NCBI GenBank assembly: GCA_903885195.1
Contig: CAISHQ010000022.1
Span: forward strand, 1-41,855
Length of the DNA stretch: 41,855 nt
Source of the DNA: an uncultured Pseudomonadota bacterium
GTDB taxonomy: Bacteria > Pseudomonadota > Gammaproteobacteria > Steroidobacterales > Steroidobacteraceae
Direction of reading: 5' to 3'
Notes under the pieces: model-generated
What the model saw: only the letters and a program-made list of their open reading frames with translations
What the model was told of the DNA's origin: nothing
Databases searched by the model: none
Translations under genes and position numbers: made by a program
Shown here: piece after piece, positions 2,442-29,129 of the stretch
Layout of the letters: each line of letters opens with the position of its first letter
How positions within the stretch are numbered: position 1 is the stretch's first letter

Positions 2442-3635
<1,194 letters not shown>

Positions 3636-3708: not shown

Positions 3709-3775
3709 TAGGTAATCCCTGTTGCAGTCACCCGGTGCCTCTGTGTCCGCGATTCTCACCGAAAATCTTGCCCCG

Positions 3776-4816
3776 ATGCCCATTCCCGTGCGGGCGAGCG
3801 CGGCGCCGCAGGTGGTGTTCGGCGATCCGTTCATGGCGCAGTTGCTGGCGCTTGCGGGGCGGGTGGCGCGTACCGAGGTCACCGTGCTCATCGGCGGCCC
3901 CTCCGGTACTGGCAAGGAAGTGCTGGCTCGGTACATCCATGATCGGTCGCTGCGCAAAGGCGAAAACTTTGTTGCTTTTAACTGCGCCTGCCTGCCGGAG
4001 TCGATGGTCGAGGACTTGTTGTTCGGGCACGAGAAAGGGGCTTTCACCGGAGCCACCCAACGGTTCGAAGGGTTCTTCGAGCAAGCCGATGGCGGCACGT
4101 TGTTTCTGGATGAGGTGGGCGAACTGCCGCTCAGCGTGCAGGCCAAGCTGCTGCGAGTGCTGCAGGAGCGTGAGTTCACGCCGCTCGGCGCGACGCGACC
4201 GGTGAAGACGCGGTTTCGTTTGTTGGCCGCGACTAACCGTAATTTGCTGGCGGATGTGCAATCTGGCCGTTTTCGCGAAGACTTGTACTACCGCTTGAAT
4301 ATCTTCCCGCTGCAGCTTAAGCCGCTGCGGCAAAGACCCGGCGATATCGTCCCTCTCGCACGAGCGATGCTCGAGCGTCATAACTACATCGCAGGAGCGA
4401 TGCGGCTCGATGAGTCCGCGATCGCCGCGTTGCTCGCGCACGAGTGGCCAGGCAACGTTCGCGAACTCGAGAACGTGATTCAGCGGGCGATGGTCGTGGC
4501 AGAGGGTGACACCGTGTCGGCGCATCACCTCGGTCTCGATGCCAGCCTGCCGCAGGATATGGGGGCCCCGATGGTCGTCATGATGGCCGTTTCTGCGGCC
4601 GATGAGTCGCAGAGTCTGCTCAGCGGAGCGGAGCGCGAGCCGGAAGCCTCGCTCGCCAGTCGGCGTGTGATCCAAGAAGCGGAATTGATCCTTGAGACCC
4701 TGAAGGCATCACCCACAAAGACATCGGCTGCAGCACGGCTTGGAATTTCGGAGCGCACGCTGCGATACAAGCTTGCGCGGATGCGTGAGCACGGCTTGGT
4801 GGCGGCGGAGCTATGA
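3776..4816 (+). CDS. flrC: sigma54-dependent activator, FleR/FlrC-like, without receiver domain
   Basis: Second AAA+ sigma54 activator of the locus. It carries a Walker A GGPSGTGK, the GAFTGA loop, Walker B TLFLDE, arginine-rich sensor region WPGNVRELENVIQRAM and a C-terminal Fis-type helix-turn-helix (KTSAAARLGISERTLRYKLARM). FleR/FlrC normally starts with a phosphorylatable receiver domain; that is absent, and no FleS/FlrB kinase gene lies beside it. A longer reading from TTG at 3722 is open, but the sigma54 site predicts transcription starting at about 3719, so the ATG at 3776 (346 residues) or GTG at 3743 is preferred. It overlaps fliE by 4 nt. Confidence 0.85.
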   Translation: MPIPVRASAAPQVVFGDPFMAQLLALAGRVARTEVTVLIGGPSGTGKEVLARYIHDRSLRKGENFVAFNCACLPESMVEDLLFGHEKGAFTGATQRFEGFFEQADGGTLFLDEVGELPLSVQAKLLRVLQEREFTPLGATRPVKTRFRLLAATNRNLLADVQSGRFREDLYYRLNIFPLQLKPLRQRPGDIVPLARAMLERHNYIAGAMRLDESAIAALLAHEWPGNVRELENVIQRAMVVAEGDTVSAHHLGLDASLPQDMGAPMVVMMAVSAADESQSLLSGAEREPEASLASRRVIQEAELILETLKASPTKTSAAARLGISERTLRYKLARMREHGLVAAEL

Positions 4817-15861: not shown

Positions 15862-16641
15862 GTGCTCGAGCTCGGAGTCTTGACGCTGAATTGGTTGCAG
15901 GCGCTGATGTTGCCGATGACGCGTATCACCGGGTTTTTTATTGCCGCGCCGATTTTCAGTCAGGCTGCTGCGACCGGCCGGGTGCGGGTGGTGTTCGCCG
16001 CCTTGCTCAGCATCGCGGTGTTGCCCGTCTTACCCACCTCTCTCTCGGATCCGGGGCGGCCCTTTGGGGAGCCGACGCTTCTGTTGCTGCTAAACGAGGC
16101 TCTCATCGGAGTCTCCATGGGGCTAGCGCTGCAGTTTGTGGCCGCGGCAGTGACCACGGCAGGCGAGCACATCTCGATGTCTCTGGGTCTGAGCTTCGCC
16201 CAGTCGTTCGATCCGACAATCGGCTCGACTCCTGTCCTGTCGCAGTTCTTGAACCTGATGTCTCTGCTGGTGTTCTTGACTGCCGACGGCCATGCCGTCG
16301 TCATTTCCATGATGACCGAGAGCATACGGACTCTTCCGCCGGGGGAGTTTCGCTTGGCCGACGTGAATGCGCTGCTCGAGTTCTCCCGCGTTGTATTCAA
16401 CGGCGCGGCCTTGCTCGCCGCTCCATTGCTGCTGGCTTTGCTCGCGGTGAACATCGGGGTGGGTGCTTTGTCTCGAGCCACGCCCCAGTTGAACGTGTTC
16501 GCGGTAGGGTTCGCTGTCAGCCTGCTGGTGGGGTTCAGCTTGCTTTTCCTCCTAGTGCCGGTCATCGCCGAGAGGATCACCGAACTGTGGCAGCAAGCCG
16601 AGGCGTTCATGCGCGCTAGGCTTTCGGTGGGTGAGTCGTAA
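15862..16641 (+). CDS. fliR: flagellar export gate protein FliR
   Basis: FliR completes the FliP-FliQ-FliR pore. The 259-residue protein has several membrane helices and conserved signatures: LMLPMTRITGFFIAAPIF, EALIGVSMGLALQFV, AGEHISMSLGLSFAQSFDP and NIGVGALSRATPQLNVF. It starts with GTG three nt after fliQ and ends one nt into the flhB start codon (TAATG). Length is normal. Confidence 0.97.
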   Translation: MLELGVLTLNWLQALMLPMTRITGFFIAAPIFSQAAATGRVRVVFAALLSIAVLPVLPTSLSDPGRPFGEPTLLLLLNEALIGVSMGLALQFVAAAVTTAGEHISMSLGLSFAQSFDPTIGSTPVLSQFLNLMSLLVFLTADGHAVVISMMTESIRTLPPGEFRLADVNALLEFSRVVFNGAALLAAPLLLALLAVNIGVGALSRATPQLNVFAVGFAVSLLVGFSLLFLLVPVIAERITELWQQAEAFMRARLSVGES

Positions 16642-17798
16642 TGGCTGAGGAGCAGGGCGAAGAAAAAACCGAAGAGCCGACCTCCAAGCGGCTCGACGAA
16701 GCGCGCCAACGCGGCGAACTGCCGCGATCACCGGATTTTGGTGGCGCTATCGAGGTGCTAGTCATCTGTGCTTTGCTGTTCCTGTTGGGTGGCGGCATTG
16801 TTGAGTCGCTGTCCGCCATGCTCATATCGAGTTTGACGTTTTCCAGTCCGGCTGTTGATGCCGAGCGTGATCTGCCTTTGCTGCTCGGCCAACGGGTGCT
16901 CGAGGGTTTTTGGGCGGTGAAGTGGCTGATGCTCTCGACCTTCGTGGTGGCCTTGCTTGCCGCCACGGTCAATGGTGGGTTTTCGTTCTCTTCGAAGGCA
17001 GCCGCTCCGAAGTTCAGCAAGCTCAATCCGCTGAGCGGTCTAAAAAGAGTATTCGGTTCGCAGGCGCTGATGGGGCTGGGGCGAAATCTATTTAAATTTG
17101 TGCTGATTGGAGCAGTGTTGGTCGGCGTGTTGTGGGCCAAGCGCTTCGAGATGCTCGCCATCTCCCGCGATGCCTTGGAGCCGATGATCATGGCCGGATC
17201 GTCGATTGCGCTGGGTGTGTTTACCGCGGTGAGCGCGGCCATCGCGGCTGTCGCGGTGATTGATGTCCCGTACCAGCGCTGGACTTATCTGCGACGTCTG
17301 CGGATGACAAAACAAGAAGTCCGTGACGAGATGAAGGACATAGAGGGCCGTCCGGAGATTAAACGGCAGATACGTCGACGCCAGCGTGAGTTGAGCCGCG
17401 GAAAAATGCTTGACCGGGTCAAGGAAGCGGATGTGGTTATCATCAACCCGGCGGAATTTGCTGTGGCGCTGCAATATGATGAGGCAATCAATGCAGTGCC
17501 GATACTGCTCGCTAAGGGTCGCGGGGTCATCGCCGCTTCCATCAAAGAGCGCGCAGCCAAGGCCGGTGTGCCGACTGTTTCGGCGCCACCGCTGGCTCGT
17601 GCGGTGTATTTCACCACGGAGATCGACGAGCAGGTTCCCGAAGGCCTGTATCGGGCCGTGGCTGCTGTGCTTGCCTACGTATTCCAGTTAAGCGCGTTGA
17701 CCCCGGATTTGGTGGCGCCGACGGCGCCGACACCGGATGTTCCGCAGGAATTCCTCTTCGACGAGGATGGTCAACCGCTCACGCAGAGGTCGCCATGA
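16641..17798 (+). CDS. flhB: flagellar export switch protein FlhB, with variant NPAE site
   Basis: FlhB loops around the export gate and changes substrate class after cleaving itself at N269-P270. The 385-residue protein has the cytosolic EEKTEEPTSKRLDEARQRG start, four membrane helices and the cytosolic domain (TKQEVRDEMKDIEGRPEIK). The cleavage site reads NPAE (residues 269-272, bases 17445-17456) rather than the near-universal NPTH. Asn and Pro, which carry out the chemistry, are kept. A Pro-rich tail of about 30 residues follows the core. It overlaps the next gene by 4 nt. Confidence 0.96.
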   Translation: MAEEQGEEKTEEPTSKRLDEARQRGELPRSPDFGGAIEVLVICALLFLLGGGIVESLSAMLISSLTFSSPAVDAERDLPLLLGQRVLEGFWAVKWLMLSTFVVALLAATVNGGFSFSSKAAAPKFSKLNPLSGLKRVFGSQALMGLGRNLFKFVLIGAVLVGVLWAKRFEMLAISRDALEPMIMAGSSIALGVFTAVSAAIAAVAVIDVPYQRWTYLRRLRMTKQEVRDEMKDIEGRPEIKRQIRRRQRELSRGKMLDRVKEADVVIINPAEFAVALQYDEAINAVPILLAKGRGVIAASIKERAAKAGVPTVSAPPLARAVYFTTEIDEQVPEGLYRAVAAVLAYVFQLSALTPDLVAPTAPTPDVPQEFLFDEDGQPLTQRSP

Positions 17799-18850
17799 CT
17801 CCGTCTGACAATAGTGATGTTTTCCATTCCGTACGCCAGGGCGATGTGCCCGTTTTTTTACTTAGGGCGGTGGCGGCTACGCGCCTCTCCGAGGCCGTCA
17901 GGCAGTTGTTGCGGGATCTGCGTTCAACGGGTGCCCGACTTGAGTTTCACGACGGTACGGCCGGCGAGGTGATGCAGGCGGTCAATCGGTTGTTGGTAGA
18001 CGTGCCGGTCGATGCAATCGCAGGAGGCGGTTCCGAAGGCGCGCTGAGAGTGCTATTCATCGACAATGGCGAAAAGTTGCCGATCGACGAACTGCGCGCG
18101 CTGCGACGTATTACGAGCGGTTTGCGCGGCAGCGTGCTCCGCGTGGTCGTCGCAGAGCGAATAACGCCGGGAGCGCAGCCGGAGGCGTCGACGGTTGGCG
18201 AGTTCGGCGACCTGGCGGCGGTCTGGACGCTCGACAACGATACGGACGTCGTGGCGGTTAGCGCTGCAGGTAGCGCTGCAGGTAGCGCTGCCGATGGTCC
18301 GCTTCGCGTTGCTCAGCCCGTCGTTGCGACGAGCAAGGTCGCAGTTGGTGAGACTGCGTCAGTCGCTGCTACGGCGTCGGTGGCTGCCACGCCGTCGTCT
18401 AGGTCAGGCGAGCGGCTAGAGATTCCAGATGTGCTGTTCGATCTTGCGAAGGAGAGGGGGGCTCGGCAGCCCGAGGCTCGATTTAGCGGCTGGTGGCGCG
18501 GTAGGCGGTCTGCTCTCGTGGTCGCGGTCTTGATACTTCTGGGTGGGCTTTTCTACGGCGTTTGGGTGCAACAACCGCGAGCGCAGCTTGGCGAGAAACG
18601 TTTCTATGACTGCGGATTACACCCGGATCGAGAATCGATTGAGGTGCTGGTCGGGCAGGTGGCCCGGTCGACGCCAACTCGGGTGCGTGAGGAAGAGGGT
18701 AAGTTTCGCCTTGAAGTGGGCCCCTTTGCGGACCAAGCCTCACTCGAAGCGGTGCGATCCCAGCTATGGCGACTCGGTGCCTGTCAGTCTCGTCCTTCGG
18801 TTGAACAGTCGACGTCCAGGATACGTTTGGAGGTTGAGGACAATGTCTAA
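17795..18850 (+). CDS. SPOR-domain membrane protein with AAA-like N-terminal region (DamX-like architecture)
   Basis: The 351-residue protein has a cytosolic part (1-145) resembling an AAA-type fold with a Walker B-like strand (RVLFIDNGEKL, 85-95) but no Walker A. An Ala/Ser-rich linker with small repeats (AAGSAAGSAAD, SVAATASVAAT) follows, then one membrane helix (about 239-257) and a periplasmic SPOR domain (about 270-350; RLEVGPFADQASLEAVRSQL). SPOR domains bind peptidoglycan strands stripped of peptides, typically at the septum or new pole. This layout recalls DamX. It is not a standard flagellar gene, yet its ATG overlaps the flhB stop, so it is made with the export gate. A role in placing or anchoring the flagellum at the pole is inference. 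Confidence 0.75.
   Translation: MTPSDNSDVFHSVRQGDVPVFLLRAVAATRLSEAVRQLLRDLRSTGARLEFHDGTAGEVMQAVNRLLVDVPVDAIAGGGSEGALRVLFIDNGEKLPIDELRALRRITSGLRGSVLRVVVAERITPGAQPEASTVGEFGDLAAVWTLDNDTDVVAVSAAGSAAGSAADGPLRVAQPVVATSKVAVGETASVAATASVAATPSSRSGERLEIPDVLFDLAKERGARQPEARFSGWWRGRRSALVVAVLILLGGLFYGVWVQQPRAQLGEKRFYDCGLHPDRESIEVLVGQVARSTPTRVREEEGKFRLEVGPFADQASLEAVRSQLWRLGACQSRPSVEQSTSRIRLEVEDNV
18259..18299 (+). repeat. 12-bp tandem repeat in the SPOR-protein linker
   Basis: AGCGCTGCAGGT is repeated about 2.5 times, giving an Ala-Ala-Gly-Ser periodicity. The unit keeps the reading frame, so linker length could vary between strains. Confidence 0.7.
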
Positions 18851-19289
18851 TGTGAATTCGAACGAGTCCGGCGGCGTTTTCAAGTCCGCCGAAACCACTC
18901 CACAAAAATTCAAGGCGGGTACCAACTCTGCTGTTTCGGACGTGGCCGTCGAGCGCGCCGAGGAGCCGGCGATCGCGCCGATCGAGCGCCGCGTCGAGGT
19001 TGCACTGCAGCCAACGACCGCGAGTCACTCCGAGCTCGACACCGCGGAGGCATCGTTGCCGTCGGCACCCGATCCGGCCGAGGATTTGCGCGCTGCTGCA
19101 GAAAAGGCGGAAGCCATCGTAGAGTCGATTGCCGAACGTGAGGCCAAGATCGAAGAGTCTTACCGCAAGGCGGAAGCGATGCTCCATGAGGTTGAACGCA
19201 TCAAGGAGTCTTTGACCTTTGATGATGCGTTGCGTCGTCGCATCGAGGCGACGGTTGCCCGCACACGCGGTCTGCGTGGCAAGTCATAA
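18843..19289 (+). CDS. small coiled-coil protein of unknown function in the flagellar operon
   Basis: I do not recognise a named family. The 148-residue protein has a disordered N-terminal half (Asn/Ser/Glu/Pro-rich) and a strongly charged coiled coil from about residue 80 to 125 (EDLRAAAEKAEAIVESI, EREAKIEESYRKAEAMLHEV), then a short basic end. No signal peptide or membrane helix is seen, so it is probably cytosolic. The ATG at 18843 overlaps the end of the SPOR gene by 8 nt; a longer reading from 18543 would lie wholly inside that gene. Linked translation with the SPOR protein suggests a shared complex. Confidence 0.75.
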   Translation: MSNVNSNESGGVFKSAETTPQKFKAGTNSAVSDVAVERAEEPAIAPIERRVEVALQPTTASHSELDTAEASLPSAPDPAEDLRAAAEKAEAIVESIAEREAKIEESYRKAEAMLHEVERIKESLTFDDALRRRIEATVARTRGLRGKS

Positions 19290-19308
19290 GTTAGCCCAGG
19301 AACCTGTT

Positions 19309-20181
19309 ATGAGCAACGAATTACACAATGATCCGGTGGACGCCCCGGCAGCCCCCGCGGAGACGCCGCTAGCAGAGTTGACGTCACTGGTGCTCGATGC
19401 AGCGGATGCCGCAAACGACAGCGCGCAGTCGACCCACGAGGCTATTGCACGGCTCACCCAGGTGGTAGAGGCCAATGAGCGCACTACAACTGCGGTTCGC
19501 AATGCTCCTGCGATATTTGGCGCCATCATGCTTGGGGTTGGTATCGCGCTGGCCGTCGTCGTTGCGATCGTATTCTCGAATATGCAAAAGCGGGCAGATA
19601 ATCTCGAGCAGGTGATTGCCAAGCAGACCGCAGGTCTCGAGAGCGTCGAACGGGCTCTGAAAGATCTCAAACTTTTTGAAGCTAATCTCGCTAAGTTCGA
19701 GACCATCGCCGCCGATACGACCCAGCGTGCAGTGGTGACTCTCCGTGAGCAGGTCAAGACAGATCGGCTGGCGCTGCAGCAGCTTGAGGTCCGTCGACTG
19801 AACGAGATGTTGGATTCATTGCGAGGGGCTGTTTCTGTCGCTGCGAAGTCGCCGCGGCCGGCTGCGACGGAAGCAACGGTCGCCAGTGCGGAACTCAAGC
19901 AGCAGGGATTGAAGCTCGATGCCGTCGACGCTGCGATTCGTAGGCTCGATACGCGCCTCGCCAACATGGAAAAGCAGTTGCCACGAGAGGGGCAAGCGAG
20001 CACTCCGGATCGGAGTAAGCAGCGGATCGTGGCGGTGCTGAGCGAGGAGCAGGGCAAGGACATCAAGGCGGCTACGGCGGAAGTGACGCGATTGAAGTCC
20101 GAGATTGCGGCGCTGCGTGATCTGATCGAGCGCCGGACGAGCGAATTGCAGAGCGGAGTTCCGGTAGTGCGAAAGCCCTAG
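19309..20181 (+). CDS. membrane-anchored coiled-coil protein of unknown function in the flagellar operon
   Basis: No family recognised. The 290-residue protein has a helical cytosolic N-terminus, one membrane helix at about 68-90 (AIFGAIMLGVGIALAVVVAI), and a long coiled-coil C-terminal part of about 190 residues (KQTAGLESVERALKDLKLF, LEVRRLNEMLDSLRG, VDAAIRRLDTRLANMEKQL, EVTRLKSEIAALRDLI). The ATG at 19309 follows an AGGA ribosome site; an open extension to 19219 is ignored because it lies in the preceding gene. It is the last gene of the fliK-flhB-SPOR run. Together with its neighbours it could form an envelope-spanning scaffold, but that is inference. Confidence 0.75.
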   Translation: MSNELHNDPVDAPAAPAETPLAELTSLVLDAADAANDSAQSTHEAIARLTQVVEANERTTTAVRNAPAIFGAIMLGVGIALAVVVAIVFSNMQKRADNLEQVIAKQTAGLESVERALKDLKLFEANLAKFETIAADTTQRAVVTLREQVKTDRLALQQLEVRRLNEMLDSLRGAVSVAAKSPRPAATEATVASAELKQQGLKLDAVDAAIRRLDTRLANMEKQLPREGQASTPDRSKQRIVAVLSEEQGKDIKAATAEVTRLKSEIAALRDLIERRTSELQSGVPVVRKP

Positions 20182-20203: not shown

Positions 20204-21154
20204 TCAGAGTGGTATGGCGGTGCAACCGGTTGCGCACGCCGTCTTATCACCGCGGAGGATTTCCAAAGTGGCTACGTGGTTGTAGTTGACCGACTTGATC
20301 CTTGCTACGGGCCACGCGCGAGCCGCAGCCGCTTCGGCACGCGGCACCAGTAGAAAGGCGACGCCGGTGCTCAAGCCCGCATAGCCGCGAGTGTCGAGTT
20401 GAAGATCACGCGCGTCTAAAGTGACGTTCAAAGATGGCTCGGCACATTGTGCCGGCTTCAGAAGTTGATTCGCGGCGGTCGTCACGGCCGCCAGCGAGTC
20501 GCGTAACCAGCGCGAGTGGATATCCGTCGACACTCGGCTGCGAATCGCCGGCGCACGGCGTACCTTGACCTGGCGTTGACCGAGACTTTTCCCGCCAAGT
20601 TGGGCATCACGGAGTTCAAGTGTGATCACGGCGGTGCGTGGTCCCTTAACCCATTCATCAAGATGCTGCTGTAGCGAGGCGAGGCCAGAGAACTCGCTGC
20701 GAATTGTCAAAATCAATGCGGGATCTCGCGTATCAGCGAGGTCTGATTCAAACTGCATGGCGAGTCCGGTCAGGCCGTCATGCAGACGCGCGTGCTCATT
20801 GGGCGACCACGCCGGATGGCGATCGACGGACTCCACGCGAACGTGGACTGCGCGGTGTATGCCCGCCGTCATCGCCGGGCAGGATGCGACCGGGTCGGTC
20901 ATCGCGTTGACACACCGGGACGGCCCGCGCGTAACTCGCAGGCTGTCTTCGATTCGTCCGTCTCGCATGAGGGTGGAATCCAACTGGACCACGGCCGGAT
21001 CCTGTTCGAGACAGAGCTGCAGCGAACTGGCCAAGGCGTCCAATTCGCCGATCGGACGACTGCTTGCCGCGTGGGTGGCGTCTGTGAATCCCAGCAAGCC
21101 CACCAACGCCCCGGCGGATACCGCCCCAGAACGACGGGTTCGTGCGCTGATCAT
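20204..21154 (-). CDS. probable FlgT-like outer basal-body (H-ring) protein
   Basis: The 316-residue protein has a basic start and a signal peptide ending near ATHA (about residue 29), so it is periplasmic. It has no membrane helix. Conserved-looking parts are RAPAIRSRVSTDIHSRWLRDSL and a C-terminal strand region (PVARIKSVNYNHVATLEI) that resembles the end of FlgT. FlgT forms the H ring around the P/L rings in Vibrio-type polar flagella. Overall similarity by eye is weak; the call rests on its 4-nt overlap with a FlgP-like lipoprotein gene and on location in the flagellar locus. It could be an unrelated periplasmic protein. Confidence 0.45.
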   Translation of the reverse strand: MISARTRRSGAVSAGALVGLLGFTDATHAASSRPIGELDALASSLQLCLEQDPAVVQLDSTLMRDGRIEDSLRVTRGPSRCVNAMTDPVASCPAMTAGIHRAVHVRVESVDRHPAWSPNEHARLHDGLTGLAMQFESDLADTRDPALILTIRSEFSGLASLQQHLDEWVKGPRTAVITLELRDAQLGGKSLGQRQVKVRRAPAIRSRVSTDIHSRWLRDSLAAVTTAANQLLKPAQCAEPSLNVTLDARDLQLDTRGYAGLSTGVAFLLVPRAEAAAARAWPVARIKSVNYNHVATLEILRGDKTACATGCTAIPL

Positions 21155-21720
21155 CGACGATCCCGCCGCGCGGCAGCGACGTATTGGGCCGGCAGTCGAA
21201 TGGTGGCCTGGTAGGAGTCGTTGCCTAGCGGTTCGAGCGAGACGATTTCGGCACCTGCGATGGTGCCGGTGAACCGAGTGCGAAGGGCGTCGCCGCCGAC
21301 TCTGCCCTCGGCTACGGTCGTTTCTCCGGCCAACTCCAGCCCGTAGAGCTGTTCGGCAAGATTGCGATAAGCGTCCATCTTGGCTGCGCGCAACGCCTGC
21401 AAGCGGCGTTGTGCCGGATCTAATCCCGACTGAGCCGTGATTGACGCGAAGCCCACAGCCACCATGTCCAGCGGACCGGTGGTCGGTTGGGTGCCTGCGG
21501 CGGATGAGGCCCGGTCAGATACGTTGGTAGGCGTAACCGGCAACTGTCGAATGGTCACCACCTGTTCGTCCCGATAAGCCGGCCGTAGTCGACGTTCGAA
21601 CAAACGTATGGTCTGGCGAGTCGTGGGCACGAGCTGCGGGTCCGAGACTTTGACGCTCGTACAACCACCAGCGGCGAGCAGCATCGCGAGCAGGCTCGCG
21701 GCTAAGGCATTTCTGTTCAT
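21151..21720 (-). CDS. FlgP-like outer-membrane lipoprotein (LPP20 family)
   Basis: The 189-residue protein starts with a lipoprotein signal ending LAAGGC (Cys20), then a variable stretch and an LPP20-type domain (VGFASITAQSGLDPAQRRL, ALRAAKMDAYRNLAEQLYG, GETTVAEG). FlgP of Vibrio and Campylobacter has this layout and builds an outer-membrane-associated disk around the motor. A GTG directly upstream (21723) is an alternative start. No ribosome site is obvious; the predicted sigma28 start would fall within a few bases of the initiation codon. It is transcribed away from flhA and is coupled to the FlgT-like gene. Confidence 0.7.
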   Translation of the reverse strand: MNRNALAASLLAMLLAAGGCTSVKVSDPQLVPTTRQTIRLFERRLRPAYRDEQVVTIRQLPVTPTNVSDRASSAAGTQPTTGPLDMVAVGFASITAQSGLDPAQRRLQALRAAKMDAYRNLAEQLYGLELAGETTVAEGRVGGDALRTRFTGTIAGAEIVSLEPLGNDSYQATIRLPAQYVAAARRDRR

Positions 21721-21730
21721 CACGAGGTGG

Positions 21731-21882: not shown

Positions 21883-23994
21883 ATGGCTGCAGCACCTTTG
21901 GAACTTGTGTCGATTCTTCGACAAACCGGCAAGAAATTGCCGATTCAAGCTGTGGCCATCCCTTTGGGCTTCCTCCTGCTCCTCGGCATGCTGGTGTTGC
22001 CGGTCCCGCCGCTGCTTCTTGATCTGTTCTTCACCTTCAACATCGCGTTGTCGCTGATCATTCTGTTTCTAGCGATTTCGGCTTCGCGCCCGTTCTCGTT
22101 TTCCGTGTTTCCGACTGTGCTGCTGTTCGCAACACTGTTGCGACTTGCGCTCAATGTGGCTTCCACGCGCGTCGTGCTCAGTGCTGGTCACGAGGGAACG
22201 GATGCCGCCGGCGACGTGATCGAAGCCTTCGGGTCGGTTCTCGTGGGTGGCGATTACATAGTCGGTATCGTTGTTTTCACCATTCTGGTGATCATCAATT
22301 TCATCGTCGTCACTAAGGGAGCCGGGCGCGTCTCCGAGGTCACGGCGCGCTTCACCTTGGACGCAATGCCCGGCAAGCAGATGGCGGTCGATGCCGACTT
22401 AGCCGCCGGGCTGATCAACCAGGACCAAGCTCGTGTTCGGCGCCGGGAGGTCACCTCGGAGGCCGATTTCTACGGATCAATGGACGGCGCCAGTAAGTTT
22501 GTTCGGGGCGACGCAGTTGCCGGCATTCTCATCTTGTTGATCAACATCTTTGGCGGAACGCTGGTCGGTAGCCTGCAGCACGGTATGGGCCTGGCGGAGG
22601 CCTTCGAGCGTTATACGACGTTTGCGGTGGGCGACGGATTGGTTGCCCAGATACCCGCTCTTCTGCTCTCGATCGCGACTGCGATCATCGTGACGCGCGT
22701 GTCCGGTGAGGAGTCGCTGCACGATCAGACCTTCGCACAGTTCAGCAATGTCGAAGCGTGGTGGCTTACGGCCGCCATCCTGGCATTGCTCGGAGTCATT
22801 CCGGGAATGCCGCATCTTGCGTTCCTTGCGCTCGCGACCATCACCGCCGGTGCGGCATGGATTCTCGGACGGCGCCGGGAGCGCGTTGCCGCCGAGGCCA
22901 CCAAGAGTGCCGAAGCGCCCGCGGGCCCGCGTGAGTTGTCGTGGTCCGATGTGCAGCAGGCGGATGCGATAGGCCTCGAGGTGGGTTATGCACTCGTCGC
23001 CCTGATCGACGCGCAGCAGGGCGGTGCGCTGGTGACGCGAATCCGCGGAATCCGCAAGAAGTTGACCTATGAACTGGGTTTTCTGATCCCGCAAGTCCAT
23101 ATCCGCGACAACCTCGATCTACGACCTGAGGCCTACCAGATCATGGTCAATGGCGTCGTCATTGGACGCGGTGAGGTCAAGCCGGCGCGAGAGCTGGCCA
23201 TACACTCTGGCGTCGTCCACGGTGATCTACAGGGTATTCGCACCAAGGATCCGACGTTCGGCCTGGATGCCGTGTGGATTGACCCGGCGCAACGCGATTA
23301 CGCCCGATCACTTGGATATACCGTAGTAGATGCGAGCACAACGATCGCCACGCATCTCAACAAGATCTTGCAGGAAAACTGCAATCTCTTGCTGGGTCAC
23401 GACGAGACGCAGCAGTTGGTCGACAAGCTTGCAGCCGCAGCGCCTAAGTTGGTCGAAGAGTTAATACCCAAGAAACTGCAGATCGGGGCCTTGACGCAAG
23501 TGCTTCAGAACCTGCTCGCGGAAGGCGTATCGATCCGCGACTTGCGCGGAGTGCTCATGGCTCTTGCTCCAGTCGCCGAGAAGGTTCAGGACATCGAAGA
23601 GCTCACAGGTGTCGCTCGTGTGGCGCTCGGTCGGATGATCGTCCAGCAGTACGTTCTGCACGGCGAGGAACTGTCCGTCATGACGTTGGCACCGGAACTC
23701 GAGCAGGTACTGCACGCGACCGTTCGACGGGGGCAGGGTGGCAACGTGCCGATCGAACCGGAACTGGCCGAAGGCTTGTTGCAATCGGTCGGTAGAGCCT
23801 CGCGTGATGAGACCAACGCCGATCGCCCGGCCATCCTCGTGACCTCGCCCACACTTCGGCCCTGGCTATCGCGCGTTCTGCGACCGCGAATTCCTGGCCT
23901 GTCGGTGCTCTCTTATGCGGAGCTTCCCGAGGACACCAGCCTGCGCGTTAACTCAAGTATCACCGTCCAGCCGCGAACGAGTGCGGCCGCCTAA
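21883..23994 (+). CDS. flhA: flagellar export gate protein FlhA
   Basis: FlhA forms the nonameric ring of the export gate; its cytosolic domain docks chaperone-substrate complexes and its membrane part uses the proton gradient. The 703-residue protein has eight predicted membrane helices in the first 330 residues, the FHIPEP-type signature (about 120-215, including VTKGAGRVSEVTARFTLDAM and PGKQMAVDADLAAG), and the soluble domain (about 345-690: ALVALIDAQQGG, ELGFLIPQVHIRDN, LAEGVSIRDLRGVL). The leader is AT-rich with no clear ribosome site. Confidence 0.98.
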   Translation: MAAAPLELVSILRQTGKKLPIQAVAIPLGFLLLLGMLVLPVPPLLLDLFFTFNIALSLIILFLAISASRPFSFSVFPTVLLFATLLRLALNVASTRVVLSAGHEGTDAAGDVIEAFGSVLVGGDYIVGIVVFTILVIINFIVVTKGAGRVSEVTARFTLDAMPGKQMAVDADLAAGLINQDQARVRRREVTSEADFYGSMDGASKFVRGDAVAGILILLINIFGGTLVGSLQHGMGLAEAFERYTTFAVGDGLVAQIPALLLSIATAIIVTRVSGEESLHDQTFAQFSNVEAWWLTAAILALLGVIPGMPHLAFLALATITAGAAWILGRRRERVAAEATKSAEAPAGPRELSWSDVQQADAIGLEVGYALVALIDAQQGGALVTRIRGIRKKLTYELGFLIPQVHIRDNLDLRPEAYQIMVNGVVIGRGEVKPARELAIHSGVVHGDLQGIRTKDPTFGLDAVWIDPAQRDYARSLGYTVVDASTTIATHLNKILQENCNLLLGHDETQQLVDKLAAAAPKLVEELIPKKLQIGALTQVLQNLLAEGVSIRDLRGVLMALAPVAEKVQDIEELTGVARVALGRMIVQQYVLHGEELSVMTLAPELEQVLHATVRRGQGGNVPIEPELAEGLLQSVGRASRDETNADRPAILVTSPTLRPWLSRVLRPRIPGLSVLSYAELPEDTSLRVNSSITVQPRTSAAA

Positions 23995-24005
23995 CGGAGT
24001 CATCG

Positions 24006-25112
24006 ATGAGAATTGAAAGGGTCGTTGCTGGAAGCTTCAGTGAAGCCAGCGAGCTGTCGAGGCAGTTATACGGGGTTGAGGCCCTGCTGATCTCCTCAAG
24101 CCGTGTGGGGAACAGCCACGAGTTGCTTGTGTGCACAGACGTCAGTGATGACGACGTACCAGGCACAAAAGTCGATCCGGCCAAGCAGCAGCGATTTGCC
24201 GCTGCAATGGAAGCCGAGGTCAAGCGCAAGCCGATACGCGGAAAAAACCTCAAAGCTGATGTCGCTGCTTCGACGTCTGCGCCCGAAACATCGCACGAGG
24301 CTCGTGCCACGGGTCCTCAGGTATCGGGTATCGAGCTCGTCAATGCCATTCGTCAGGAGTTGCAGGCCATCGAGTCTCGGCTGGCACGTGGAAGCCGATC
24401 GGCGACCCTGTCAGCCAAAATGGCGCTTCTCGAACACGGGGTATCGGCGGCGTACGCTGAGCATTTGCTGGCAGAGGGTAATGATAGTGCCAGCGTGGCA
24501 CAGCGTTTGTACGCTGAGCTGCGTGTCGAACACGGCAACCTCGAGTCATCAACTCAACCGATGATGGTCACTGGTCCCGTCTCTGCCGGCACGACGACAG
24601 TCGCCATGCAGGTTGCGCATCGAGTCGCCGCGACGAGCGGAGGCAGGCCTGTGGTGGCTGCGTTGCGTGATCCCCGCTGCGGTGCACGTGAGAGATTTTT
24701 TGCCATAGCCGATGCCGCGGGTGTGTTGCCGTGTTGGGGCGCGGTGCCCAACGAGGTGACGGTGGTCGACGCCGGTGGACGGCGTGCAGAGGACGTCGAA
24801 GCCTTGCGAGAGGAGTTCCCCGCTTTTCGAATCGCCCTCTGTCTGCCGTCGTACCTGAGTGGCACAGCTGCTGCCCGTTGGCTCGATGCCTGTCCCCCAT
24901 CATGCGGTGTGATCGTTTCGCATTGGTCGCCGATGGAATTGCCGCTCGCGCTGCTCTCCAAACTCGCGGAGCGGAAAGTGCCGTTGATTGGGGTATCGCA
25001 GGAAGCTGATCCGACCCTCGCTATGGACTCCGCTGCGCTTCAAGGTCTCGAAAGCTCGATCCGGCAGGGCATCACGCTGTTGTTGGCTACGGATTCGACG
25101 CGAGACGCATGA
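24006..25112 (+). CDS. flhF: FlhF-like SRP-family protein with degenerate GTPase motifs
   Basis: FlhF is an SRP-type GTPase that places the polar flagellum. The 368-residue protein has the FlhF N-terminal B region (MRIERVVAGSFSEASELSRQ), the N domain (about 110-180) and a G domain. Key motifs are altered. The P-loop reads GPVSAGTTT (190-198) in place of GPTGVGKTTT, so the Walker A lysine is Thr. The G2 region is DPRCGARE (222-229), G3 is DAGGR (255-259), and the TKLD nucleotide-specificity motif appears as SHWS (305-308). It should bind GTP poorly or not at all. The reading frame is clean and coupled to flhG, so it is not a decayed pseudogene. Confidence 0.85.
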   Translation: MRIERVVAGSFSEASELSRQLYGVEALLISSSRVGNSHELLVCTDVSDDDVPGTKVDPAKQQRFAAAMEAEVKRKPIRGKNLKADVAASTSAPETSHEARATGPQVSGIELVNAIRQELQAIESRLARGSRSATLSAKMALLEHGVSAAYAEHLLAEGNDSASVAQRLYAELRVEHGNLESSTQPMMVTGPVSAGTTTVAMQVAHRVAATSGGRPVVAALRDPRCGARERFFAIADAAGVLPCWGAVPNEVTVVDAGGRRAEDVEALREEFPAFRIALCLPSYLSGTAAARWLDACPPSCGVIVSHWSPMELPLALLSKLAERKVPLIGVSQEADPTLAMDSAALQGLESSIRQGITLLLATDSTRDA

Positions 25113-25936
25113 TGAGTGGCAGCATAAAGACAACTCGGGTCCTGGCTTTCGCTAGCGGGAAAGGCGGTGTCGGCAAGACGCTGCTCAGTTTGAATACTGC
25201 CGTAGCCTTGGCCAGGCAGCATCACAGTGTGGTGCTATTTGACGGTGACATGGGTCTCGCCAACGTGCATGTGCTGCTTGGAACACAGCCCCGTGCGACC
25301 GTGGCCGATGTTCTGGCCGGGCGCTGCGATCTGGCCCAGACAATGTTCGTGGGTCCAGAGGGGATCAAGATTATTCCTGGCGGCTCAGGCATCCGCGACC
25401 TCGCAGACCTGCCGAGCGGTGAATTCGCCCGGCTGCTGCAAGGTCTGCAGGACGTTCAGCCTCCGCCCGATTATCTGATTATCGACACGGGTGCCGGCAT
25501 CGGCTCGCACGTCACGACGCTGGTTCAGTTGGCCGATATCGTCGTCGTCGTCGTGCGCGATGAACCGGCTTCACTCGCTGACGCCTACGGTCTCATTAAG
25601 GTGGCCCACACCGAGTTTCAGTGCCAGTCGTTTCACATCGTTGTCAACGATGTAAAGGATGCGCAAAGAGGCCAGCAAGTCTTTACGCGCCTGCAGGACG
25701 TCGCAATGCGCTTTCTGGGGTTGCCGTTGACCTTATCGGGCGTTGTGCCCCATGACGATTCGATCACTGACGCAATGCGACGTCGCGAGAGTGTCGTGAC
25801 GGCGTTTCCGGAGTCCCGTGCTGCAGCGGCTATTCGCCGCTTGGCAGGGGAGCTATCGAACGCGGCGCTCGCGACGGATGCCAAGCGTTTCCTGCTCGAC
25901 AAGCTTGGTCGAGGCCGTGGGGTGGCGATGCCATGA
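25109..25936 (+). CDS. flhG: flagellar number regulator FlhG (FleN), MinD/ParA-type ATPase
   Basis: FlhG limits flagellar number and in Pseudomonas restrains FleQ. The 275-residue protein has the deviant Walker A GKGGVGKT (about 18-25), the switch I region DGDMGLANVHVLLG, the IIDTGAGIG Walker B/switch II (about 126-134), and a C-terminal membrane-targeting-like helix region. All ATPase motifs look intact. The N-terminus before the P-loop is short and lacks the DQAxxLR motif that activates FlhF GTPase in some species. It overlaps flhF and fliA by 4 nt each. Confidence 0.93.
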   Translation: MMSGSIKTTRVLAFASGKGGVGKTLLSLNTAVALARQHHSVVLFDGDMGLANVHVLLGTQPRATVADVLAGRCDLAQTMFVGPEGIKIIPGGSGIRDLADLPSGEFARLLQGLQDVQPPPDYLIIDTGAGIGSHVTTLVQLADIVVVVVRDEPASLADAYGLIKVAHTEFQCQSFHIVVNDVKDAQRGQQVFTRLQDVAMRFLGLPLTLSGVVPHDDSITDAMRRRESVVTAFPESRAAAAIRRLAGELSNAALATDAKRFLLDKLGRGRGVAMP

Positions 25937-27590: not shown

Positions 27591-28593
27591 TGCAGTCCCG
27601 CCCTCTGAGGGGGTGAGCGGGGAAACGTCGGCAGCGCCTGAAGGCGCGGCGCCGACGGCAGAGAAAGTGCCGGCTGCAGCTGAAGACGCGGCTGCGGCAG
27701 CCGCCCCGCTGCAGCCGATCATCATCAAGAAAATCATCGACGAGGGCCATGCCGGTGGGCATGGCGGCGCGTGGAAAATCGCGCTGGCCGATATGATGAC
27801 CGCGATGATGGCCTTTTTCTTGTTGATGTGGTTACTCGGTGCGACTAACGCTGATCAACGCAAAAGCATCGCCGAATACTTTCAGCCCACTAATCGTCCG
27901 GTCGTCGATAAATCCGGTGGGTCAAACGGATTCTTCGGTGGCATGTCCTTGATTGATCCGAAATCGCTGCCCATGACGCTGACGCAGACGGGCATCAATC
28001 AACTGACGGCACCGGGAACCGAGGAGTACGAGTCAACGTCGGAAGACCAGGCGTTGCCGCAAGGTTTGAGTGAGGAGGAGCGTCAGAAGATTGCCGCGGA
28101 GCAGGACGAAAAAGCATTCGAGGCTCTTCAGGACGCGATGGAAAAGCAGATCGGCGCTGATGAGGCGACGTCAGAACTGCTGTCGAAGGTAAAATTTGTA
28201 AGGGAAAAAGAGGGTCTGCGTATCGAGATTCTCGATGATGCAGGATTCTCGATGTTTGACTCCGGCACCACCTCCTTATCGGGGCCGGCTGCTGCGCTGA
28301 TTGCCAAGGTGGGTGAGAGCCTGAAGGGCGTGCCGAACGAGGTCGCCGTGCGCGGACATACTGACAGCACGCAGTTCAAGGCGGCGGGTAATAACAATTG
28401 GACGCTGTCGGCTAATCGTGCCGATATGACTCGGCAAGTGCTGACCTCCATCGGGGTGGACGAATCGCGGTTCTCACGAATCGAGGGCGTTGCAGACTCG
28501 CAGCCGGTTAATCCAATGAACCCTGCGGACCCGAAGAATCGCCGTATCAGCATTACGGTACTTTATCGCGACGGCGAGTTGCCGAAAAAATGA
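27571..28593 (+). CDS. motB: flagellar stator protein MotB with long N-terminal extension
   Basis: MotB couples proton flow to rotation and anchors the stator to peptidoglycan. The 340-residue protein has one membrane helix (about 70-92; ALADMMTAMMAFFLLMWLLG) with the proton-carrying Asp at residue 74, a plug region, and an OmpA-like peptidoglycan-binding domain (about 205-335; VRGHTDSTQFKAAGNNNWTL and PKNRRISITVLYR). Asp is at residue 32 in E. coli; here about 42 extra Ala/Pro/Glu residues come first. No later in-frame Met precedes the helix, so the extension is probably real. It overlaps motA by 20 nt. Confidence 0.95.
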   Translation: MASVASDAVPPSEGVSGETSAAPEGAAPTAEKVPAAAEDAAAAAAPLQPIIIKKIIDEGHAGGHGGAWKIALADMMTAMMAFFLLMWLLGATNADQRKSIAEYFQPTNRPVVDKSGGSNGFFGGMSLIDPKSLPMTLTQTGINQLTAPGTEEYESTSEDQALPQGLSEEERQKIAAEQDEKAFEALQDAMEKQIGADEATSELLSKVKFVREKEGLRIEILDDAGFSMFDSGTTSLSGPAAALIAKVGESLKGVPNEVAVRGHTDSTQFKAAGNNNWTLSANRADMTRQVLTSIGVDESRFSRIEGVADSQPVNPMNPADPKNRRISITVLYRDGELPKK

Positions 28594-29129
28594 GTGCAGG
28601 GAGTGCGTTACCGCGGCTAAAGCGTTTGGTTGTGTTTGCTGCCTTTGCGGTTGCAGCGTCGACGGCCGATGCGCGATTTCTGAGTGGCTTTGATGCCTTT
28701 CGGGCTGGCGAGTACTGCAAAGCGCGCGATTATTGGTTGAAGAGTGAGCGCGATGGTGATTCAAATTCTGCATTCGGTCTCGCTGAGCTTTACGCCCGCG
28801 GATTTTGCGTCAAGCAGAACGATCGCCTCGCGACTCGTTGGTATTTGACGGCGGCTCTGCGCGGTAACTCGAGAGCGCGCGCCGAATTGGGTGTTCGGTA
28901 CGCTTACGGCCGGGGTGTTAAGCCCAACGCTTTCAAAGCCTATGTATGGCTTTCGGCCGGCAAGCTGAGTGCCGCCGGATGGGACACGACGTTCGTTAAA
29001 AATGCAGACGCCAACTTGCAAATGCTACGCCCATTGCTGACCGATAAAGAAAAGCAGCGGGCGGATCGCATCCTGGCTGCGTTCGTTCGCAAGTGGGCGC
29101 TGCCCCGAGAATTCAACTCGCTCGACTGA
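28590..29129 (+). CDS. secreted Sel1-repeat protein
   Basis: The 179-residue protein has a signal peptide (VVFAAFAVAASTADA) and at least two Sel1-type helical repeats (AFGLAELYARGFCVKQNDRL; RAELGVRYAYGRGVKPNAF), which usually mediate protein contacts in the periplasm. The ATG overlaps the motB stop, so it is probably co-transcribed with the stator genes. Sel1 proteins occur near motors in some bacteria (for example MotX-like and PflB-associated proteins), so a stator or envelope role is possible but not shown. Confidence 0.8.
   Translation: MSAGSALPRLKRLVVFAAFAVAASTADARFLSGFDAFRAGEYCKARDYWLKSERDGDSNSAFGLAELYARGFCVKQNDRLATRWYLTAALRGNSRARAELGVRYAYGRGVKPNAFKAYVWLSAGKLSAAGWDTTFVKNADANLQMLRPLLTDKEKQRADRILAAFVRKWALPREFNSLD

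Follow-up and report, generated by a model that had tools for sequence, protein, structure and literature searches.

The DNA analysed here (hereafter the window) is contig C22, taken at its full length of 41,855 nucleotides, of an uncultured bacterium of the Steroidobacteraceae whose genome assembly comprises 2.72 Mb in 201 contigs (97.13% complete, 3.87% contaminated). Judged by its sequence, the window represents a second, divergent flagellar system in metagenome-assembled genomes of this family, in which three genes, referred to as X, Y and Z, lie between flhB and flhA. In what follows, W-type denotes the flagellar system of the window and R-type the other system in the same genome, both names being coined in this analysis. 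We tentatively propose that XYZ may be a dedicated envelope anchor, or landmark, of the W-type flagellum, a possibility that we hold with considerable doubt. The fuller proposal, which as a whole we consider rather unlikely, is that the site is marked by a wall-reading SPOR pseudo-ATPase and its two partners in place of the GTPase cycle of FlhF, in a separate flagellum type that has persisted as the sole one detected in several species which lost the ordinary flagellum together with the FlhF belonging to it, and whose own FlhF lacks GTPase motifs in some. The proposal draws on the constant adjacency of the three genes, their absence where W-type genes are absent, the genomes with the W-type system alone, the loss of FlhF motifs and the distribution of FipA. 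The central genes and domains are as follows.

Positions 16641 to 17798, + strand: flhB of the W-type (PF01312, 363 bits), whose stop overlaps the start of X.
Positions 17795 to 18850, + strand: X (351 amino acids), composed of an AAA-like domain that lacks Walker A, a single membrane helix and a SPOR-like domain.
Positions 17795 to 18241, + strand: X residues 1-149, an AAA+-fold domain without Walker A (structure model, fold matches, motif scan).
Positions 18512 to 18568, + strand: X residues 240-258, a predicted membrane helix with the N-terminus predicted inside (hydropathy, flanking charge).
Positions 18590 to 18802, + strand: X residues 266-336, a SPOR-like domain with conserved C273 and C330.
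Positions 18843 to 19289, + strand: Y (148 amino acids), soluble, with an N-terminal KS...AVS motif and a C-terminal helix region, both conserved (alignment of 13).
Positions 19309 to 20181, + strand: Z (290 amino acids), a membrane coiled-coil protein (alignment of 14; model with a helix at 20-178).
Positions 21883 to 23994, + strand: flhA of the W-type (PF00771, 836 bits).

The start of X at 17795 lies inside the flhB stop (flhB ends at 17798), giving an overlap of 4 bases, and Y begins at 18843, before the end of X at 18850, giving one of 8 bases; both overlaps had been claimed in the original prediction, and they suggest translational coupling. The ATG of Z follows at 19309, 19 bases past the end of Y, and the gene ends at 20181. 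The three genes are adjacent in all 19 W-type loci compared, 14 of them with a single contig covering everything from flhB to flhA, and they stand directly behind flhB in 18 of the 19, that is, in every locus with flhB within reach of the assembly (the G010 contig begins inside X). Across 11 ortholog pairs of XYZ proteins, the ratio of nonsynonymous to synonymous substitution rates (dN/dS, NG86 method; the X pairs exclude the window copy) ranges from 0.04 to 0.12, these values being rough for the five pairs in which dS exceeds 1. Given this synteny and this dN/dS range, the three are not chance open reading frames, and X, Y and Z are confirmed as real genes. They diverge faster than the flagellar core proteins, which would suit genes that are mere passengers in the cluster with no flagellar role; the adjacency in 19 loci, the absence of X and Z from genomes without W-type genes and the low dN/dS make that explanation highly improbable.

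The coupling to flhB is also in keeping with an unlikely reading by analogy, in which XYZ would help to build or activate the export gate of the W-type (FliPQR-FlhB-FlhA). Besides the 4-base and 8-base overlaps and the position behind flhB in 18 loci, the branch rates of flhB and X correlate at 0.42 (a coefficient alone, with no p value). The analogue is SwrB of Bacillus, likened to XYZ by description as a non-core membrane-associated protein of a flagellar operon, for which we know of no SPOR partner. SwrB is described as activating export through FliP and, unlike X, as monotopic (PMC4526659).

The distribution of the set follows that of the W-type system. X and Z are present in every one of the 15 genus members whose assembly covers the region and in none of the eight that lack W-type genes. 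Searches with X and Z in 60 relatives, and with X and Z profiles in class samples of 369 genomes, found no copy outside W-type loci, Y not being searched alone, and the same negative result was obtained for GTDB contigs (Z, two short patterns), viral contigs (X) and plasmids (X and Z). Two of the three findings that the original prediction had named as telling against it, frequent occurrence of the set outside flagellar loci and its absence from relatives with the same degenerate FlhF, were examined, and neither was observed: in the X and Z searches the set was seen solely in the W-type locus, and among relatives with this FlhF type it is there wherever the stretch is assembled. Its further suggestion, that the set might co-occur with a degenerate FlhF, did not hold, as XYZ tracks the whole W-type system and is equally present in the loci whose FlhF keeps both GTPase motifs. 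The parts are of known kinds (SPOR domain, AAA fold, coiled coil, flagellum), but the XYZ combination, Y and Z have no described match in the family libraries used, and literature searches returned no account of a set of this kind.

The two systems are distinct. The window encodes flagellin, fliS, two sigma-54 activators, fliFGHIJKLMNOPQR, flhB, X, Y, Z, a divergently read pair (the flgT-position and FlgP-like open reading frames), flhA, flhF, flhG, fliA, motA and motB. Its genome holds another flhB, at C66:15618-16721, which shares 39% identity with that of the window and is followed by its own flhA (53% identity to the window flhA), FlhF, flhG and fliA genes. W-type FlhB forms a discrete group: in an order-wide sample, eight of 296 genomes score at least 467 bits and all others at most 297, and in the class sample of 369 genomes the best score outside the group is 311. 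The eight are G000, four more members of the genus, G569 (genus g10) and G512 and G544 (g303). In a tree built from six W-type proteins of 13 genomes, which carries no support values, G569 falls within the g1 genus beside G002, a position that would be consistent with transfer of the W-type locus between genera; the W-type locus of G569 is L154 / L155 (G569:C4). The genus relatives compared are metagenome-assembled genomes, and their sample names suggest lakes and estuaries as habitats.

Protein X is variable, its 11 orthologues being only 28-37% identical to the window copy, and its AlphaFold model has two well-predicted parts. The first, residues 1-149, has an AAA+ fold according to the model and a fold search confined to these residues. 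The Walker A motif GxxxxGK[ST] is missing from all 12 X proteins in a motif scan, so that X is not an ATPase by this test, and the Walker B-like strand aspartate is missing in two of the 12. The AAA-like part without Walker A that the original prediction had described is thus borne out. A conserved DVLxxLAxER stretch stands just before the membrane helix, and the net positive charge on the N-side of the helix in all 12 rows predicts that the AAA-like part lies inside and the SPOR-like part outside. The second part is a probable wall-binding domain. The window copy scores 15.6 bits against SPOR (PF05036), under the 21-bit Pfam cut-off, and a genome-wide search at E <= 0.001 yields five SPOR proteins that do not include it. 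Across the family, a SPOR match at E <= 0.1 is present in 11 of the 12 X proteins (best 3.3e-7), and the top match of the X profile in the PDB is the FtsN SPOR domain (E 0.0092). The model shows the strand-helix-strand-strand-helix order of the SPOR fold (strand 269-276, helix 279-288, strands 295-300 and 303-311, helix 314-327), with a predicted local distance difference test (pLDDT) score of 88-95 over residues 271-330. C273 is invariant and aligns with the Cys-Gly of FtsN, and C330 is present in all 11 rows that reach that far, at a place that would match a second cysteine of FtsN. A SPOR-domain membrane protein had been claimed at this position, and apart from the sub-threshold score of the window copy the claim is upheld.

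Y is predicted to be soluble, with no membrane helix predicted, in line with the cytosolic protein originally described, and the membrane coiled-coil character of Z is likewise supported by the alignment and the modelled helix. For the window copies of both proteins, no family scores above its cut-off. In Z, 60 columns are invariant in the 14 sequences, many of them just before the membrane helix and in a later DTTQRA...LREQ stretch. Its model has a mean pLDDT of 73 and a predicted TM-score of 0.23, and helicity alone is usable from it. The orientation of Z is ambiguous, since the charges flanking its helix are balanced, although all 14 sequences have an acidic N-tail and 13 of them a basic C-part. 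The linker of Y contains several VYVGPEQ-like units in L099 (G009) and fewer VFVG/VYVG-like units in other copies.

The layout of X also resembles that of ExeA/GspA of type II secretion, with an AAA_22-like part inside (AAA_22 itself matches 3 of the 12 X proteins), one membrane helix and a predicted periplasmic wall-binding part. By this analogy X would grip peptidoglycan and, together with Y and Z, help the W-type rod and rings through the wall in the manner of ExeA/ExeB, position being set elsewhere; we give this reading low credence. The neighbours of XYZ that bear on it are two genes on the opposite strand.

Positions 20204 to 21154, - strand: a fast-evolving open reading frame in what we take to be the flgT position, adjoining Z in 19 of 19 loci.
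Positions 21151 to 21723, - strand: an LPP20-like open reading frame, presumably FlgP-like (PF02169, 22.8 bits, sub-threshold against a cut-off of 25.9).

The window copy of the former matches no family above cut-off. Among 16 proteins, the flgT-position protein and X show the two largest mean distances (1.75 and 1.41; the genome sets are unequal). Passage through the wall is made less probable by several differences: X has no Walker A, whereas ExeA is an ATPase; it has SPOR in place of the wall-binding domain of ExeA and has no secretin partner; neither a lytic enzyme nor a partner resembling ExeB was recognised next to XYZ; and ordinary flagella cross the wall without such a set. ExeA is reported to interact with peptidoglycan and, with ExeB, to be needed for secretin assembly (PMC4098917).

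The anchor proposal bears directly on FlhF and its partner FlhG, which are encoded downstream of flhA.

Positions 24006 to 25112, + strand: a divergent FlhF with its N-terminal domain kept and, in the window species, the P-loop lysine replaced by threonine and the G4 aspartate by serine.
Positions 25109 to 25936, + strand: flhG of the W-type, with MinD/ParA-type matches and the deviant P-loop KGGVGKT intact.

The window FlhF scores 43.2 bits against TIGR03499 (cut-off 174.15), and two R-type FlhF proteins also fall under this cut-off (G008, 163 bits; G020, 156 bits). Among 18 W-type FlhF proteins, the P-loop lysine and the G4 aspartate are both missing in four (the window, G010, G002 and G003) and the aspartate alone in eight, which makes 12 of 18 for aspartate loss in total; all nine R-type proteins keep both motifs. 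The third G4 position is tryptophan in 18 of 18 W-type and 0 of 9 R-type proteins. Mean pairwise identity in the W-type is 64% over the first 45 residues and 48% in the GTPase part, a modest contrast given the corresponding 64% and 53% in the R-type. From these comparisons, decay of FlhF is graded among the W-type relatives, and XYZ was there before it. The degenerate FlhF of the original prediction therefore stands for the window locus and species, but neither genome-wide, since the R-type FlhF at C66 scores 192.1 bits, above the family cut-off, nor as a trait of the group. Compensation by XYZ for a cell-wide loss of FlhF was rejected because of that R-type FlhF and because XYZ is equally present with both motifs intact. 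For FlhG, an activator motif DQAxxLR has been described (PMC11236974, PMC12826062). It was seen in neither W-type nor R-type FlhG, and its absence was therefore rejected as a hallmark of the W-type.

The W-type is the sole system detected in nine of 24 genus members. A W-type FlhF was found in seven of these nine, where any other FlhF-type match reaches at most 70.7 bits. FipA (DUF2802) was detected in 5 of 5 genomes with the R-type only, 3 of 6 with both systems (G006 just below the cut-off), 3 of 9 with the W-type only, none of the three that have neither system, and not in G004; it was thus undetected in six of the nine W-only genomes, and no DUF2802 match lies on any W-type contig. The three W-only FipA genes have a probable explanation: G001, G005 and G023 contain a fused gene in which a rod-type N-terminus is joined in frame to a motB body (G001:C2, L217:7960-8841; L222:5855-6736; L223:1618-2499; 91-92% identity to the G001 copy), with flgD on one side and, on the other, the DUF2802 gene followed by a match to the R-type HDOD gene of G000. 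This fusion is probably a scar left when the R-type core was deleted, and the DUF2802 genes beside it would belong to the R-type remnant. G001 has FlgE-, FlgFG-, FlgH-, FlgI-, FlgK- and FliD-type genes alongside its W-type fli genes, and together with the scar these genes indicate that the W-type persisted after R-type loss. Additionally, in G006:C63 and G019:C144 the R-type FlhF appears as low-scoring pieces (best 35.5 and 38.6 bits) despite a full R-type FlhB, which would fit R-type decay.

Several points weigh against the anchor proposal. Both GTPase motifs are kept in six of the 18 W-type FlhF proteins (G001, G007, G023, G009, G512 and G544), and in those genomes FlhF may function as usual. 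The FlhF N-terminus is no more conserved in the W-type than in the R-type (64% in both). G000 and G010 have an R-type FlhF and no FipA, and the R-type itself is thus not strictly accompanied by FipA. Completeness is below 90% in five of the nine W-only genomes, and an R-type system or FipA may be missed in them. Tree-based rate covariation (13 genomes, 23 branches) gave 0.21 for FlhF-X and 0.12 for FlhF-Z, neither significant, and the test recovered FlhF with FlhG but not with X, Y or Z. Distance-based values (FlhF-X 0.66, FlhF-Z 0.55; 15 genomes) were dropped as evidence because the tree-based ones are not significant. Overall, the original prediction of a new polar anchor is supported in part: the set is kept with the W-type locus and was not found elsewhere, but it does not track FlhF decay, and covariation with FlhF was not recovered on the tree.

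To our knowledge, few flagellar landmarks are known besides HubP/FimV and FipA. In ordinary polar placement, a chain is described that runs from HubP/FimV with FipA to the FlhF GTPase domain, and from the FlhF N-terminus through FliG to FliF (PMC11236974, PMC11620751); FliG is reported to bind the FlhF N-terminus, in Shewanella, and HubP the GTPase domain, and whether FlhF and FliG follow HubP has been tested in E. coli (PMC11236974). How such landmarks tell FlhF where the pole is has been described as only partly understood (PMC12826062). HubP/FimV, the polar landmark, and FipA, the membrane anchor of FlhF, pair a wall-binding membrane protein with a membrane coiled-coil protein tied to flagellar placement, both acting on FlhF (PMC11236974, PMC11620751); X and Z would form a similar pair. 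HubP/FimV is characterised by a LysM-like domain and a C-terminal FimV/TPR domain, and FipA by a single DUF2802 domain behind a membrane helix. By its domain matches X would differ from HubP/FimV in having SPOR and not LysM, and an AAA-like part and not a TPR/FimV domain: no LysM is among the nine families listed for the 12 X proteins, and a weak TPR_21 match occurs in one (E 0.044). The acidic N-tail and basic C-part of Z would allow a FipA-like orientation, though its flanking charges are balanced. XYZ lies between flhB and flhA, whereas the DUF2802 (FipA) gene stands behind motB of the R-type cluster. DUF2802 has no match at E <= 1 in the window copies of X, Y and Z and none in the window's genome, and it is not among the nine families of the X orthologues or among the 25 listed of the 44 families matched by Z.

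SPOR domains target septal wall, and X shares with the group of FtsN, DamX and RgsS a SPOR-like domain, for which FtsN, with its aligned Cys-Gly, is the closest solved structure; unlike them, it has an extra AAA-like part and was found in one flagellar locus type alone. X would combine the requisites of a landmark, namely a probable wall-binding domain of a division-site-finding kind, a membrane span and a predicted cytosolic docking domain. The architecture, linkage, conservation and FlhF changes are observed; SPOR binding, septal and polar targeting and contacts of X, Y or Z with FlhF or FliG are inferred, as follows. The SPOR domain of X would bind stripped glycan at division sites, so that X would gather first at the septum and later at the new pole. 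Its pseudo-AAA domain, with Y as a soluble adaptor and Z as a membrane scaffold, would capture the FlhF-FliG-FliF seed of a new basal body. In the W-type, XYZ may thereby fill the role that HubP/FimV and FipA have for ordinary FlhF, and may have allowed later decay of the FlhF GTPase part in some species. In Sinorhizobium, the SPOR protein RgsS has been reported to select the new pole (PMC7822825). The septal targeting of SPOR domains would equally serve a control of number or timing, in which X delays or licenses W-type building until the septum is made and is not a physical anchor. DamX, encoded in the aroKB-damX-dam region, is a SPOR division protein; nothing in the data separates such control from the anchor proposal, and we consider it improbable. 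If XYZ does place the flagellum, division-site peptidoglycan itself would be the positional cue, in a flagellum type that has both a membrane protein whose outer domain is of a family reading the wall of new division sites and an FlhF decayed stepwise in some species; XYZ would count as a new accessory set of the flagellum even if its role is to help build it instead.

Further features of the W-type loci were noted. Two sigma-54 activator genes stand in tandem near the start of the cluster (window 2442-3635 and 3722-4816), as they do in L088, L090, L094, L098 and L154, and a Sel1-repeat gene follows motB (window 28590-29129), in the same place in L091, L093, L095, L104, L107 and L155. The W-type loci of L088 and L090 (G007 and G001) each have four flagellin genes in a row and two fliS genes, the last flagellin of L088 being cut by the end of the stretch. 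Some W-type proteins are long, including an FlgE-type protein of 1112 amino acids (L219:10120-13455) and an FlgK-type protein of 986 (L219:3329-6286). Finally, L129 is titled Klebsiella pneumoniae and L119 Actinomycetota; their gene content is that of this Steroidobacteraceae group, and both are probably mislabelled metagenome-assembled genomes.

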